NCBI GenBank assembly: GCA_903928495.1
Contig: CAIYQZ010000076.1
Span: 25,610-89,609 of the forward strand
Direction: 5' to 3'
Length of the DNA stretch: 64,000 bases
Source of the DNA: an uncultured bacterium
GTDB lineage: Bacteria; Pseudomonadota; Gammaproteobacteria; Burkholderiales; Burkholderiaceae_C
A program made the translations under genes and the position numbers. The notes under the pieces were generated by a model that saw only the letters and a list, made by a program, of their open reading frames with translations, was not told the origin of the DNA and made no database searches. Each line of letters begins with the position of its first letter. The first letter of the stretch is position 1. Below are positions 59,121 to 64,000 of this stretch, piece after piece.

Positions 59121-59618
59121 CTATTTTGAAGTCATGCGTTTCAAGTACTGAGTAAGGCCCGAGCAGGCGTCGTCTAACAAATCCAGCACATGTTCAAAGC
59201 CCGCCTCCCCTCCGTAATACGGGTCGGGCACCACCGTGTCGGTGTGCTGGCAGGCAAACTCCATCAAGCGGCGCACCTTGTGCTGGTGCTGCGGCGGACA
59301 GGCAGCCTGGGTCAACGAGAGGTTGTCCCAGTCCATGACCAGGATGAGGTCCATCTGCTCAAAGTCCTCTTCGGTGATCTGCCGCGCCCGGTGGCCAGAC
59401 AGGTCAATGCCACGCCGCTGCGCATGGGCAGCGCTGCGCACATCGGCTGGCTTGCCGGGGTGGTAGTTGTGCGTGCCTGCCGAAAACACGGCCACGTGTT
59501 GGCCCAACTCGGCCAACTGCACGTGGTGGCGCAGCACGGCTTCTGCGGTGGGGCTTCTGCAGATGTTGCCCATGCAGACAAAGAGCACCTTGTACAAGAA
59601 AATCTCCTTATAAAACAA
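59121..59618 (-). CDS. Low-molecular-weight protein tyrosine phosphatase
   Basis: VLFVCMGNICRSPTAEAVLRHHV; VPDPYYGGEAGFEHVLDLLDDACSGL. Likely uses an internal TTG start (LYKVLFVC...) preceded by GGAGA. Confidence 0.93.
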   Translation of the reverse strand: MFYKEIFLYKVLFVCMGNICRSPTAEAVLRHHVQLAELGQHVAVFSAGTHNYHPGKPADVRSAAHAQRRGIDLSGHRARQITEEDFEQMDLILVMDWDNLSLTQAACPPQHQHKVRRLMEFACQHTDTVVPDPYYGGEAGFEHVLDLLDDACSGLTQYLKRMTSK

Positions 59619-59706
59619 GCCTATCGCGTGCAGCAGCGTGCAGTAAAATGCGGCTACTTTTGGAAAATGTGTCCCAAAATTTGCCCAAAAGGAGCCTCAC
59701 TGCACC

Positions 59707-60759
59707 ATGCAAACCGCACCCAAAACCGAGACGGACGTTAAGCGGCTGAAGCCAGTTACTAAAGAGCAATGGTATGGATTCGGGAACGGCCTGTATCTGC
59801 GCCATTCGGCACCGCACCTGCTCACGTGGGTATACCGCACCAAGGCGGGCGGCAAGCAACAAAAGGTCAAGCTTGGTACTCACCCAGCCATGTCGCTAGC
59901 AGCCGCACGGGCAGCGTGCGCAAAGCTGGGGGCAACCGCCCTCCCCGATCAAGTCCGCGCTGAGACCGTCTGCAATGAGTGGTACGACCGAGTCATCGTG
60001 CCAACCTACAAGCAAACAAAGAACGCCTCGGTGTACGTGAACAGGTTCAACAGGTTTTTCGGCCACCGCATGATTGGCAGCTTGACAACCGCCGAGCTCA
60101 CAAACAATTTGATTGACTACGGCAAGCAATACCCGGTCGCAGCCAACCGTTGTCGGTCGTCTTGGGCCTTGATGTTCGGCTACGCAAGGCAGCGCGGGCT
60201 GATCAGTGTGAACCCATTGGCCGAAACGTCTAACGCAGTGGCAGGGGGCACCGAGACAGCGCGGGCCAGAGTCCTAACCGATGAAGAGATCACCTGGGTG
60301 ATGGCTCTGCAAGACGACCACGGAAAGCTCCTGCGGTTCTTGCTCTTGACAGGGCTACGGATCAGCGAAGCCCAAACCGCGAAGGTCGGCCAGTTGGACG
60401 GCGATGTTCTGCACATACCGGAGAACAAAAGCGACCGCCCACACTGGGTAGCCGTGTCGCCACTCGCTCGGGAGCAGCTTGGCGACTATGGCGGGTTCTT
60501 GTTCTTCGCCCGTGGTGTTACCGCTACGCAAGCATGGCTCAAGCGGCAGGATGTTGGCTGGACACCGCACGACTTGCGGCGAACGTTCGCCACTAGACTG
60601 GCAGGTATGCAGGTTGCTCCCCACGTTATCGAAAAGTGTCTTAACCACACGCTTGGCGGGGTGCTGGCAACCTACAACCGACACGACTACGCAGCAGAAC
60701 GCACCGCAGCGACTCTGGCATGGTCGGAAAGTTTGGCGGGCCATGCCAAAGCAAATTGA
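59707..60759 (+). CDS. Tyrosine-type site-specific integrase
   Basis: DUF4102-like N-terminal arm domain; LLTGLRISEAQ, HDLRRTFATRL, LNHTLGGVLATYNRHDY catalytic motifs. Confidence 0.94.
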   Translation: MQTAPKTETDVKRLKPVTKEQWYGFGNGLYLRHSAPHLLTWVYRTKAGGKQQKVKLGTHPAMSLAAARAACAKLGATALPDQVRAETVCNEWYDRVIVPTYKQTKNASVYVNRFNRFFGHRMIGSLTTAELTNNLIDYGKQYPVAANRCRSSWALMFGYARQRGLISVNPLAETSNAVAGGTETARARVLTDEEITWVMALQDDHGKLLRFLLLTGLRISEAQTAKVGQLDGDVLHIPENKSDRPHWVAVSPLAREQLGDYGGFLFFARGVTATQAWLKRQDVGWTPHDLRRTFATRLAGMQVAPHVIEKCLNHTLGGVLATYNRHDYAAERTAATLAWSESLAGHAKAN

Positions 60760-61069
60760 CCTGTTCAGCAAGGGCGGTCAAGGCTACTTGTCGGAAGAAG
60801 AGTTATTGCGCAACATCACCACGCCAGAGCAGCGCACGGCGGCTCTTCTGGTGTCGGCACAAAAAGGGCTTGCAGGGCGTGCGCAAGCCAAAGCGAAGGC
60901 AGCGACCCAACGCACCGCAAACGACGCAGCCAAGGCCCGTGCAGCCGCACCGCTAGGGCTTGCCGGGGGGCCGTTGCTGGCATGGTTGCAAGCCAACCCG
61001 CCTTTCTGCGATTGGGACGTGAGGCGGCTAAAAAAGGTCGTTGAGCACATCAGCGCTAGCAGCTTTTAA
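60743..61069 (+). CDS. Hypothetical protein of the element
   Basis: 108-aa ORF (MPKQIDLFSKGGQGYLSEEELLRN...) overlapping the integrase 3' end by 17 nt. Confidence 0.6.
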   Translation: MPKQIDLFSKGGQGYLSEEELLRNITTPEQRTAALLVSAQKGLAGRAQAKAKAATQRTANDAAKARAAAPLGLAGGPLLAWLQANPPFCDWDVRRLKKVVEHISASSF

Positions 61070-61113
61070 AAGCTGCATTGCTGGGCAAGCTGTGCGGCGG
61101 CAAAGTACCGCCC

Positions 61114-61335
61114 ATGCCACAGCCAAACACACCACCCCCACCCTGCTACCCAGCGGAGACATTCGCCGAAGAAGTTGTCGGCGTTCCTTTCCGCACGTTT
61201 GAGCAGCTTGTGTCCGAAGGTCACGGGCCACGCATGTTCTTACTCGGTCGTCGCCGCTACGTAATGTCTTCAGACGGAATCGCGTGGCTTGAACTAATGC
61301 GCGACCGCTTCCCCTACTGCCCCAAGACCGGATGA
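61114..61335 (+). CDS. Small AlpA/excisionase-like DNA-binding protein
   Basis: FAEEVVGVPFRTFEQLVSEGHGPRMFLLGRRRYVMSSDGIAWLELMRDR resembles MerR-like excisionase fold. Confidence 0.5.
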   Translation: MPQPNTPPPPCYPAETFAEEVVGVPFRTFEQLVSEGHGPRMFLLGRRRYVMSSDGIAWLELMRDRFPYCPKTG

Positions 61336-61632
61336 ACGCTGGTTCGCTGCGTGCCAAAACAAAAGCACCGCCCGCGCACGGGCCAAGCCCCACGCCAAAC
61401 AGCCACAGCCAACAGGCCACCAGCGGTATTCACGCCAGCAAGGGCATTCCATCCATTTTCGGCGGTAATACTCATTTGGAATTGTGAAGATTATCTGCAT
61501 GGCGGGTAATGAATTCCGTTTGCACAATCATTAAAGCAATAAATAATTATGTCAATTTGGGCTTACAAACCGCCAGCCATGCCTTAAACTAAGCGTGCCG
61601 CAACGGGCAATTTATTTATTAAAGGACACAGC

Positions 61633-62028
61633 ATGGCACAAAAAGATGTAATTGAAATTGGTGGACAATCAATTCCATTAGCTACCTTCGCACAGGAGTA
61701 TCTTGGAACATCGCACGCAACAAACTATTTGCGCAGTCTTGGGCTGGAACTCGGCTACTCGGTTCTCAGTAACCGGAGAATCCAGAACGACAACCCGCCG
61801 TACATAAAAATCTACGACGCTTATCTCTACAAGAAGACCGACCTTGACGCTTGGGCGCAAAGCAACGAAGCCGCCCGCTATTTGGTCAACCCCGAAGATC
61901 GTGAAGTTCGCCTGTTGCAGAACAAAGCAGACAAGTTGCGCGAGCGTGCAGATGCAATGGCCGTCGCTGCCGCTGCTGCAAGGCTGGCCGCTGTGAACGT
62001 TGAAAAAGAAGCCGTTAAAAGTGTTTGA
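61633..62028 (+). CDS. Hypothetical protein of the element
   Basis: 131-aa ORF with good RBS (AAAGGACACAGC ATG). Confidence 0.6.
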   Translation: MAQKDVIEIGGQSIPLATFAQEYLGTSHATNYLRSLGLELGYSVLSNRRIQNDNPPYIKIYDAYLYKKTDLDAWAQSNEAARYLVNPEDREVRLLQNKADKLRERADAMAVAAAAARLAAVNVEKEAVKSV

Positions 62029-62047
62029 GCACCTTTAACGGCCGAAC

Positions 62048-62178
62048 TTTCAATATAGGCTATGGCAAAGCCCACGTTAATTATAACGCGGTTTTGTGCT
62101 ATGGCAAGAAAGGTTAGAAAGAAAGGCCCGCATGAATATGTGGGAACACAAACCAAACCTTTCAATAGATTATGGCAA
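62048..62178. promoter_or_regulatory. Repeat-rich leader of the primase gene
   Basis: TATGGCAA at 62061, 62100, 62171; TTTCAATA-N-TATGGCAA duplicated; palindrome CGTTA-ATTA-TAACG at 62075-62088. Confidence 0.45.
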
Positions 62179-63875
62179 CCAGATTAGGTGGACTTTCACA
62201 ATGGACAGATGCAGAGGATGCAGCAACACGAGCAGATTTTGCATTCGCCCAAGAAGACAACAGCGGCGATTATTTAAACGAATCACACTTACCACTTCTT
62301 GTGCGGTTTGTAAGACAGCGGATTCTTGTTAGCGCACCACGGGACGAAGTGTTGGAAAGCATCACCGCCATTGCAGCGGATCACTTTGCTGAAGGTGTTG
62401 TTGACCATCACGCGATTTTTGATCAAGCCATGGACAGCGTCTTAGAAACAGCCGTTACAGGCGACGGTGCTCGCCCGGTAACGCAAAACGAACGGGATGA
62501 AGAACGTCGGCAGCGTCAGATAGAAATCAACAAAAGCCTGCAAGACAAAGTTGAAGAAGGCGTTGCAGCCATACCGCCAGAAATGAATCTCGATCAGATG
62601 TTGGCCGAGTTGGTGGATGTATCGGATGGTGCGGTGGTGGTGTTGCGGAGTAACCCAGCCGTGGCACTGCCAACCGCCCACATGGCCCGACGCTTCAACA
62701 GCAACCTGATGACACGCATCGTAGTAGGGGCCAACGGCCAGCCTCGCGAGAAAACAGTACCGACGTTTACCGTGTGGGAAACGCACGCTGGCCGTGTTCA
62801 GGTATTTACGCGCACGTTTGCACCGGGACGGCCAGCCATCTGCCGCGACCCGGACGGCCTACCAGCTATCAACTACTGGAAGCCCATACGTCGCAAGGAG
62901 TGTTCAGGGCCGGAGTATGAAGCGCACGTGAGCGCCTTTGTGGGCCACGTTCGCTACATCTTCCAACCGAGTGCCAACCCTACATCGGTGCAACTGGCAG
63001 AGTCCAACGCCGAGGCCGAAAAATTCCTTGACTGGCTTGCCCACATCGAACAGAAACCGGGCCAACTGCCTCACTATGGTTGGGTTCACGTTGCCACCAA
63101 GACAGGTCTTGGGCGCAACTGGATTGCGAGCGTGATTGCTCGTGTTTGGATGGGGTACGTTGCCCCCTCTGTTGACCCACAGGCGCTTCTAAAAAGCGAG
63201 TTCAACGGGAACCTAGCCAACCGACTGATCGCAACCGTGGACGAGATTCGAGTCGGTGGCAACAACAAGTTCGATGGGTTCGAGCACATCAAAACGTTGG
63301 TCACGCAAGACATCCGGATGATTAACCCAAAGTACGGGACGCAGTACAAGCAGTTCAACGCCTGCCGCTGGCTCCTGTTCAGTAATCACCTGGACGCGCT
63401 ACCGTTGAATGAAACCGACCGCCGCTTCCGTGTGGTCAGTACCGGGGTTGACCCACGACCTCCATCGGTGTACGCCAGCCTTTACAACATGCTGGAAGAC
63501 AAATCGTTTGCGGATTCCATCGGGTGGTTTTTGTGTCAGCGCAACATTGCAGACTTCCAACCGGGCGAGCGCCCGCCCATGACAGCCGCCAAGCGCAGCA
63601 TGATCGAGAAGTCCCGGTCGTTTACTACATCGCGGGCGATAGAGATCGTGAACCACTGGCCGTGCGACGTGATTACAAGTAGGGAATTGCTTGAAATCCT
63701 CAGGACAAGCGGCACAGAGACAGGGCTAACACCGGGTATGCGGAGGTCGCTCACGGACGCAGGTATTCACCCGATCGTGGACAGAAAAGAAGAGCCGAAG
63801 AATATGCGGATTGGCCCACTAAACGATAAAGGACACCGGGCGGGCGATAAGGCGTGGTTCATTAGTCGGCCCTGA
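62172..63875 (+). CDS. DUF5906/D5-like phage primase-helicase
   Basis: HVATKTGLGRNWIASVI (Walker A position), NRLIATVDEI (Walker B), FNACRWLLFSNHLDALPLNETDRRF (sensor/Arg finger). Confidence 0.75.
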   Translation: MATRLGGLSQWTDAEDAATRADFAFAQEDNSGDYLNESHLPLLVRFVRQRILVSAPRDEVLESITAIAADHFAEGVVDHHAIFDQAMDSVLETAVTGDGARPVTQNERDEERRQRQIEINKSLQDKVEEGVAAIPPEMNLDQMLAELVDVSDGAVVVLRSNPAVALPTAHMARRFNSNLMTRIVVGANGQPREKTVPTFTVWETHAGRVQVFTRTFAPGRPAICRDPDGLPAINYWKPIRRKECSGPEYEAHVSAFVGHVRYIFQPSANPTSVQLAESNAEAEKFLDWLAHIEQKPGQLPHYGWVHVATKTGLGRNWIASVIARVWMGYVAPSVDPQALLKSEFNGNLANRLIATVDEIRVGGNNKFDGFEHIKTLVTQDIRMINPKYGTQYKQFNACRWLLFSNHLDALPLNETDRRFRVVSTGVDPRPPSVYASLYNMLEDKSFADSIGWFLCQRNIADFQPGERPPMTAAKRSMIEKSRSFTTSRAIEIVNHWPCDVITSRELLEILRTSGTETGLTPGMRRSLTDAGIHPIVDRKEEPKNMRIGPLNDKGHRAGDKAWFISRP

Positions 63876-64000
63876 TTTATTCATAAATCATTGATTCATA
63901 ACGATATTTCGGCTGATTCCGGTAAAATATCTCTCAGATTATTGGTGTATTCAAGCTGATTTCTGGGAGTTTGCGCATGTTCGCTTGCCCTGCCACCGAA

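Follow-up and report, generated by a model that had tools for sequence, protein, structure and literature searches.

The stretch analysed here, 64,000 nucleotides of DNA from an uncultured bacterium of the Burkholderiaceae_C (contig CAIYQZ010000076.1; hereafter the window), very probably holds the left 4.3 kb of a phage satellite of the phage-inducible chromosomal island (PICI) type, whose integrase targets lmwPTP, the gene for a low-molecular-weight protein tyrosine phosphatase. The source is one draft genome, which may be a metagenome bin, and the end of the window is the end of the contig (C76). Five open reading frames (ORFs), all co-oriented on the plus strand, are visible beside lmwPTP: a tyrosine integrase gene (int, 59707-60759), ORF108 (60743-61069), which overlaps int by 17 nt, the AlpA/Xis-like ORF85 (61114-61335, with an alternative start at 61078), the 131-aa ORF131 (61633-62028) and a replicative helicase gene (62172-63864). 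The original prediction had named these genes, and all are present in the places it gave. The GC content of the element is 55%, compared with 63% in the rest of the window. Both Pfam and PHROGs support the identities of the integrase (Phage_integrase, 1e-12; Arm-DNA-bind_3, 2e-10) and of the helicase, and an Rfam scan gave no match above threshold.

The integration site can be read from an empty one. Genome G303, of the same genus and about 95% identical at the gene, carries uvrB and lmwPTP without the element. The lmwPTP gene of the window (59121-59597, minus strand; LMWPc, PF01451, 8e-44) is 95% identical to that of G303 up to the recombination core. The agreement extends through lmwPTP to 59579, where the two diverge, G303 reading MKPQMKVLMVCMGNICRSP and the window MYKVLFVCMGNICRSP. 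The crossover thus falls within 29 bp (59551-59579) that are identical to the empty site and lie inside the lmwPTP coding sequence. The original prediction had set the left border near 59640, which is too far to the right; its proposal of attachment at the lmwPTP 5' region rather than at a tRNA gene is upheld and can be narrowed to specific codons, no tRNA attachment site being found near the element. The 12-bp core TGCATGGGCAAC (59565-59576, minus-strand sense), located within a TCTGCA...TGCAGA inverted repeat, encodes the residues C-M-G-N of the active-site loop (P-loop) of the phosphatase, and this loop is intact in the window (CMGNICRS).

The left arm of the element (59580-59706, 45% GC) differs from the native 5' end in G303. 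It gives lmwPTP new first codons (MYKVLF), a TTG start (59597-59595) and an AAGGAG ribosome site (59609-59604), followed by an AT-rich leader up to int. Since the arm supplies the ribosome site, the start and the first 8-10 or so codons, a complete phosphatase ORF is rebuilt, with host sequence from about codon 8. In all, 14 attL, attR, attP and attB sites were tabulated. The core TGCATGGGCAAC is common to them, with variants at third codon positions (TGCACAGGCAAC in locus L144). At every tabulated attL, element-borne codons before the core restore KVLFxCMGN or a close variant; at every tabulated attR, the native lmwPTP start remains as a short stub. Of the two attachment sites that the original prediction proposed to look for, attL is thus located for the window copy, while attR is seen in relatives only (G1018 (locus L136), L147 and L149, plus the right junction of L144). 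Joining the flanks of the G1018 element in silico gives an intact lmwPTP frame.

Homologues of the integrase are rare: only its own copy was recovered from 400 genomes of the family (1e-50) and 399 of the order (1e-30). A class-wide search yielded four relatives, recruited by sequence alone. Where both a full integrase and the left flank are present (L132, L133 and L134), the gene is always head-to-head with the 5' end of lmwPTP; L140 has a partial integrase, with lmwPTP 4 kb away. A search of viral contigs with the integrase alignment added L144, L145, L147, L148 and L149. Three of these contigs (L145, L147, L149) start inside lmwPTP, and L148 has a 99-bp terminal overlap indicating a circle, the attP of which bears the same core. 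For L144, whose contig does not reach the left flank, the label was taken from the right junction. In a tree of 97 integrases, the eight members labelled as lmwPTP-associated form one clade with L148 (support 99/87), to which the window integrase belongs. The clustering of the label was not equalled in any of 500 shuffles, and all nine clade members carry the core, either at an lmwPTP junction or in attP. Two further integrases from a phylum-level search (L142, L143) fall outside the clade.

The elements at this site are compact. The G1018 element is 9,487 bp long with a 25-bp repeat, L148 is a circle of 9,896 bp, and L147 and L149 measure about 10.2 and 8.6 kb from core to core. Size is claimed for these four members of the clade, the right flanks of L133, L134 and L145 being off their contigs or not found. 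A complete phage gene set is present in none of the four among the genes examined. The late genes that they and L145 carry vary: capsid and tape measure in G1018, capsid in L145, minor tail protein Z in L147, and a ClpP-capsid fusion in both L148 and L149. Capsid and tape-measure proteins are the two size rulers of the virion, and several satellites of about 9-10 kb encode them. Capsid or capsid-like genes, tail tape-measure genes or both occur without a complete head or tail set at L136 (6844-11055), L148 (5987-9995) and L056 (912-3203 and 7728-8612), the last a circular record discussed below.

The closest relative of the window element is L144, whose integrase is 54% identical. It lies between lmwPTP and uvrB, the latter being reached within about 10.3 kb of int, and its right end carries the displaced lmwPTP stub MTKVLFVCTGN beside uvrB. 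Its genes comprise int, an AlpA-like gene, an AAA_25 replication ATPase, an HK97-type capsid, prohead protease, portal, connector, HNH and TerL, and no tail genes. Judged by this content, L144 has the layout of a capsid-forming PICI (cf-PICI), and it occupies the chromosomal junction at which the window element lies too. The earlier statement that no capsid or packaging gene is seen holds for the visible 4.3 kb and for the assembly, as far as one capsid family (PF05065) and one terminase type (the TerL of L144) were searched for, but it does not extend to L144, which has a full head-and-packaging module. Defence genes against phages, which had been named as frequent cargo past the helicase, find no support.

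Among the small genes, ORF85 is AlpA/Xis-like, as had been proposed, and may encode an excisionase or regulator. Homologues occur at the same position in L080 (8e-12) and L144 (5e-10), and the structural model is a winged helix-turn-helix (HTH) whose top matches among solved folds are excisionases (8c3t, 8dgl, 4j2n), a fold that would fit such a role. No sequence relative of ORF108 was found. The similarity of ORF131 to HTH_17 and HTH families is weak (E-values of 0.025 and 0.003), and its AlphaFold model is too poor for use. The AT-rich gap noted earlier between ORF85 and ORF131 (61336-61632) has a GC content of 49%, below that of the element and of the rest of the window; it is a putative regulatory region and contains overlapping promoter-like sites near 61519-61555, weak and little above chance. 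An inverted repeat with a 14-bp stem (62010-62043), located where ORF131 ends and shortly ahead of the helicase gene, may be a terminator or a replication origin hairpin.

The replication gene encodes a DUF5906 (SF3-type) helicase (PF19263, 1.3e-14). Of the primase-helicase anticipated in the original prediction the helicase is confirmed; a helicase domain is the only one present, a primase domain not being detected. When genomes and viral contigs were scanned with the single helicase sequence, no relatives emerged. An alignment-based search recovered 40 genomic relatives, many of them in islands of the order int, small HTH gene, helicase, and seven such islands are flanked by direct repeats of 46-56 bp that resemble tRNA 3' ends and lie 8.9-10.6 kb apart. 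The window helicase is 43-47% identical to those encoded on circular records of 8.7-9 kb that were deposited as plasmids of Proteus, E. coli and Moellerella, and more distant relatives occur in further E. coli and Klebsiella records. The helicase tree places it in one clade with compact islands and with circular satellites (SH-aLRT 91), apart from 47-kb phages; its branch is long, so that its exact position is unsure.

Several of these relatives merit mention in their own right. L056, L057, L058, L059 and L060, public circular 'plasmids' of 8.7-9 kb from Proteus, Moellerella, E. coli and Klebsiella, encode a DUF5906-type helicase, and L056, L058 and L060 additionally carry tape-measure, capsid or scaffold genes. 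A head-to-tail dimer, CP077066.1, likewise bears a helicase of this type. From their gene content, several public 'plasmids' of this size look like excised phage satellites that have been misfiled. L082 (12091-20255), L078 and L080 are DUF5906 helicase islands of the Azonexaceae/Dechloromonas type, in which a conserved block behind the helicase comprises a collagen-like gene, a tape-measure-like gene of 1,005-1,064 aa and small genes. The viral contigs L103-L117, the larger ones of about 45-48 kb, share a related helicase and further gene blocks and probably represent one phage group.

On the right, the visible part of the element is closed by an insertion sequence (IS), the left end of which (63865-64000, plus strand, terminal GTCGGCCCTGATTTATTCA) reaches the end of the contig. 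It starts inside the helicase ORF, which runs on to 63875: residues up to 564 are native, the final three (SRP) come from the IS, and the W-I-x-R-N-H-x-x-W tail conserved in the helicase relatives is lost. The IS is multicopy, with its left end at six further contig ends and ten right ends elsewhere in the assembly, and it gave no match to plasmids. Elsewhere in this genome, at the start of G000:C56 (L007/L040), it also interrupts a different integrase gene at its 3' end, beside a tRNA-like sequence. At G000:C17:106-1410 (L127) a 434-aa phage-like ORF lies directly inside an IS right end, for which no pairing left flank was found.

The right half was found neither on the ten right-end flanks of the IS nor on contigs C17, C49 and C4. 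With the helicase cut by the IS, the contig ending there and no partner flank, the assembly lacks both the right half of this copy and its attR, and the copy is probably defective. A related explanation, which is compatible with a satellite origin and has a considerable though minority chance of being correct, is that the element is a dead remnant: once the IS had inserted, the right half would have been lost, and int, alpA and a helicase gene cut short would have stayed fixed beside lmwPTP. The IS does cut the helicase before its conserved motif; not one of the ten flanks at IS right ends opens with the expected 6-bp target duplication TCATTA; and neither a second copy of the core, nor a capsid gene of the one family searched for (PF05065), nor an L144-type terminase is present in the assembly. 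However, int and alpA are intact. Moreover, the contig carrying uvrB (C70) breaks off in unique sequence some 75 bp short of the uvrB stop codon, which suggests that short contigs are missing from the assembly and makes absence weak evidence.

The window could also hold the left end of a full-length prophage with an lmwPTP-targeting integrase, its structural genes lying beyond the IS. The right side is unseen, DUF5906 helicases also occur on 47-kb phage contigs, and the C-terminal part of an integrase encoded on a 68-kb viral contig (L131/L206) is closely related, so that related integrases may also serve full phages. This is nevertheless improbable: the sized members of the clade at lmwPTP measure 8.6, 9.5, 9.9 and 10.2 kb, no more than about 10.3 kb separate int from uvrB in L144, the window helicase branches with compact islands, and the order of int, overlapping ORF, AlpA-like gene and helicase is that of a satellite. 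An integrative and mobilizable element (IME), for which conjugation and not a phage would provide the transfer, is most improbable, and the earlier 'IME-like' label finds no support in the visible genes: integrase, Xis-like gene and replication helicase are found together in IMEs also, but no relaxase-like gene was detected by Pfam among the visible ORFs, genes for capsid, head protease, terminase or tape measure occur in relatives at the site, and helicases of this family are found in circular satellites that bear capsid genes.

Several observations weigh against a PICI-type satellite at lmwPTP and lower its probability. Only 4.3 kb of this copy are visible, and the integrase fragment on the 68-kb viral contig is 70% identical over 46 residues. 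The AlpA-like signal of ORF85 is below Pfam detection, a Pfam search having given no match, and the assignment is drawn from two homologues, a model with a pLDDT of 71 and fold matches with weak E-values. The window helicase and ORF131 have no relative in the other elements at lmwPTP that were examined, and the replication module may therefore have been swapped. The dependence on a helper phage is inferred from PICMI and PICI genetics, PICMI being the minimal satellites of Vibrionaceae.

The sequences show that integration takes place at the P-loop codons and splits lmwPTP after Cys-Met-Gly-Asn, that the left arm rebuilds the ORF and that, in relatives, the displaced native 5' stub lies at attR. 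For the later course, a proposal can be made by analogy with PICMI and PICI genetics (PMC10803314, PMC10111431): ORF85, as a switch with ORF108 as its partner, may turn the integrase towards excision on phage infection, and the DUF5906 helicase may replicate the excised circle. Packaging might use at least the tails of the helper phage or its whole particles, perhaps with satellite-coded heads as in L144.

Integration into lmwPTP by satellites of roughly 9-10 kb, in distant bacteria, is apparently a distinct and undescribed habit; literature searches in a collection of open-access papers turned up no account of lmwPTP in this role, subscription papers lying outside this coverage. For an integrase family aimed at the catalytic loop of a housekeeping enzyme, the analysis maps the core site, gives the sizes of four relatives and adds one circular form. 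Since the target is this loop, it should exist wherever the loop is coded in the same way. Such satellites should be easy to spot just upstream of lmwPTP in Burkholderiales and other Gammaproteobacteria, and an attB/attP pair is ready for testing. It is a tentative and rather doubtful extension that lmwPTP is a dedicated, deeply conserved satellite landing site throughout the Gammaproteobacteria (as defined by GTDB, which places Burkholderiales among them), picked for its invariable P-loop codons; that the satellite, which swaps promoter, ribosome site and start when it integrates and gives the native ones back when it excises, may thereby switch phosphatase expression, a form of regulated gene integrity; and that members at the site differ in their head or tail 'ruler' genes (a capsid module, capsid and tape measure, or a minor tail protein). 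Whether satellites re-wire a signalling phosphatase is a testable question.

The element is PICI/PICMI-like rather than P4-like, so that the original prediction of a P4/PICI-type satellite stands in its second part only; P4-like satellites are marked by psu, sid, delta and an alpha-type primase, and no alpha-type domain, as in P4, is present in the visible helicase. PICMI have the order int-iolg-alpA-up1-prim, with prim a DUF3987/DUF5906 gene, and, as a hallmark, integrate at fis (PMC10803314); they are induced by a helper phage and packaged as concatemers. The window shows the same co-oriented order of int, int-overlapping gene, putative alpA, small gene and DUF5906-type replication gene, with ORF108 in the iolg and ORF131 in the up1 position; the AlpA-like gene is supported by homologues and fold but lies below Pfam detection. 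In PICMI, iolg is present in 21 of 35 subfamilies and overlaps int by 1, 4 or 13 nt (PMC10803314), as against 17 nt here. Since its junction is in lmwPTP and not in fis, the element is not a strict PICMI; its host is also outside the Vibrionaceae. A cf-PICI is approached through L144, which shares the site, has the closest integrase and carries its own head and packaging genes in a tail-less element of about 10 kb; the window element, visible as a left module only, has a DUF5906 helicase in place of the AAA_25 protein of L144, and the lmwPTP site sets it apart from cf-PICI. In Gram-negative PICI, DUF5906 is counted as a satellite replication protein and late genes are carried variably (PMC10111431). 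The window has the same co-oriented int, alpA and replication gene, the last a helicase without a detected primase domain; unlike HE-PICI (PMC10111431), the element does not lie in a prophage late gene, and its integrase clade and target differ. The circular records pW47-1, pW18-2-d, pRHB04-C06_4 and pC277_3 (8.7-9 kb) have related DUF5906-type helicases (up to 47% identity), and three of the four show capsid, scaffold or tape-measure genes; unlike the window element they lack the lmwPTP site and have another integrase or none. The integration strategy resembles that of the dusA-associated integrases, whose islands, with varied cargo, lie at the 5' end of dusA and supply a new 5' end (PMC4482086). 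In both cases a tyrosine integrase specialises in a conserved segment of a housekeeping protein gene, close to the 5' end, and the gene is regenerated. At lmwPTP, however, the target is formed by active-site codons with the core TGCATGGGCAAC, and the sized elements span only 8.6-10.2 kb. The element thus appears, from its sequence, to be a satellite with a dusA-like, gene-regenerating integration strategy, new by its target site.

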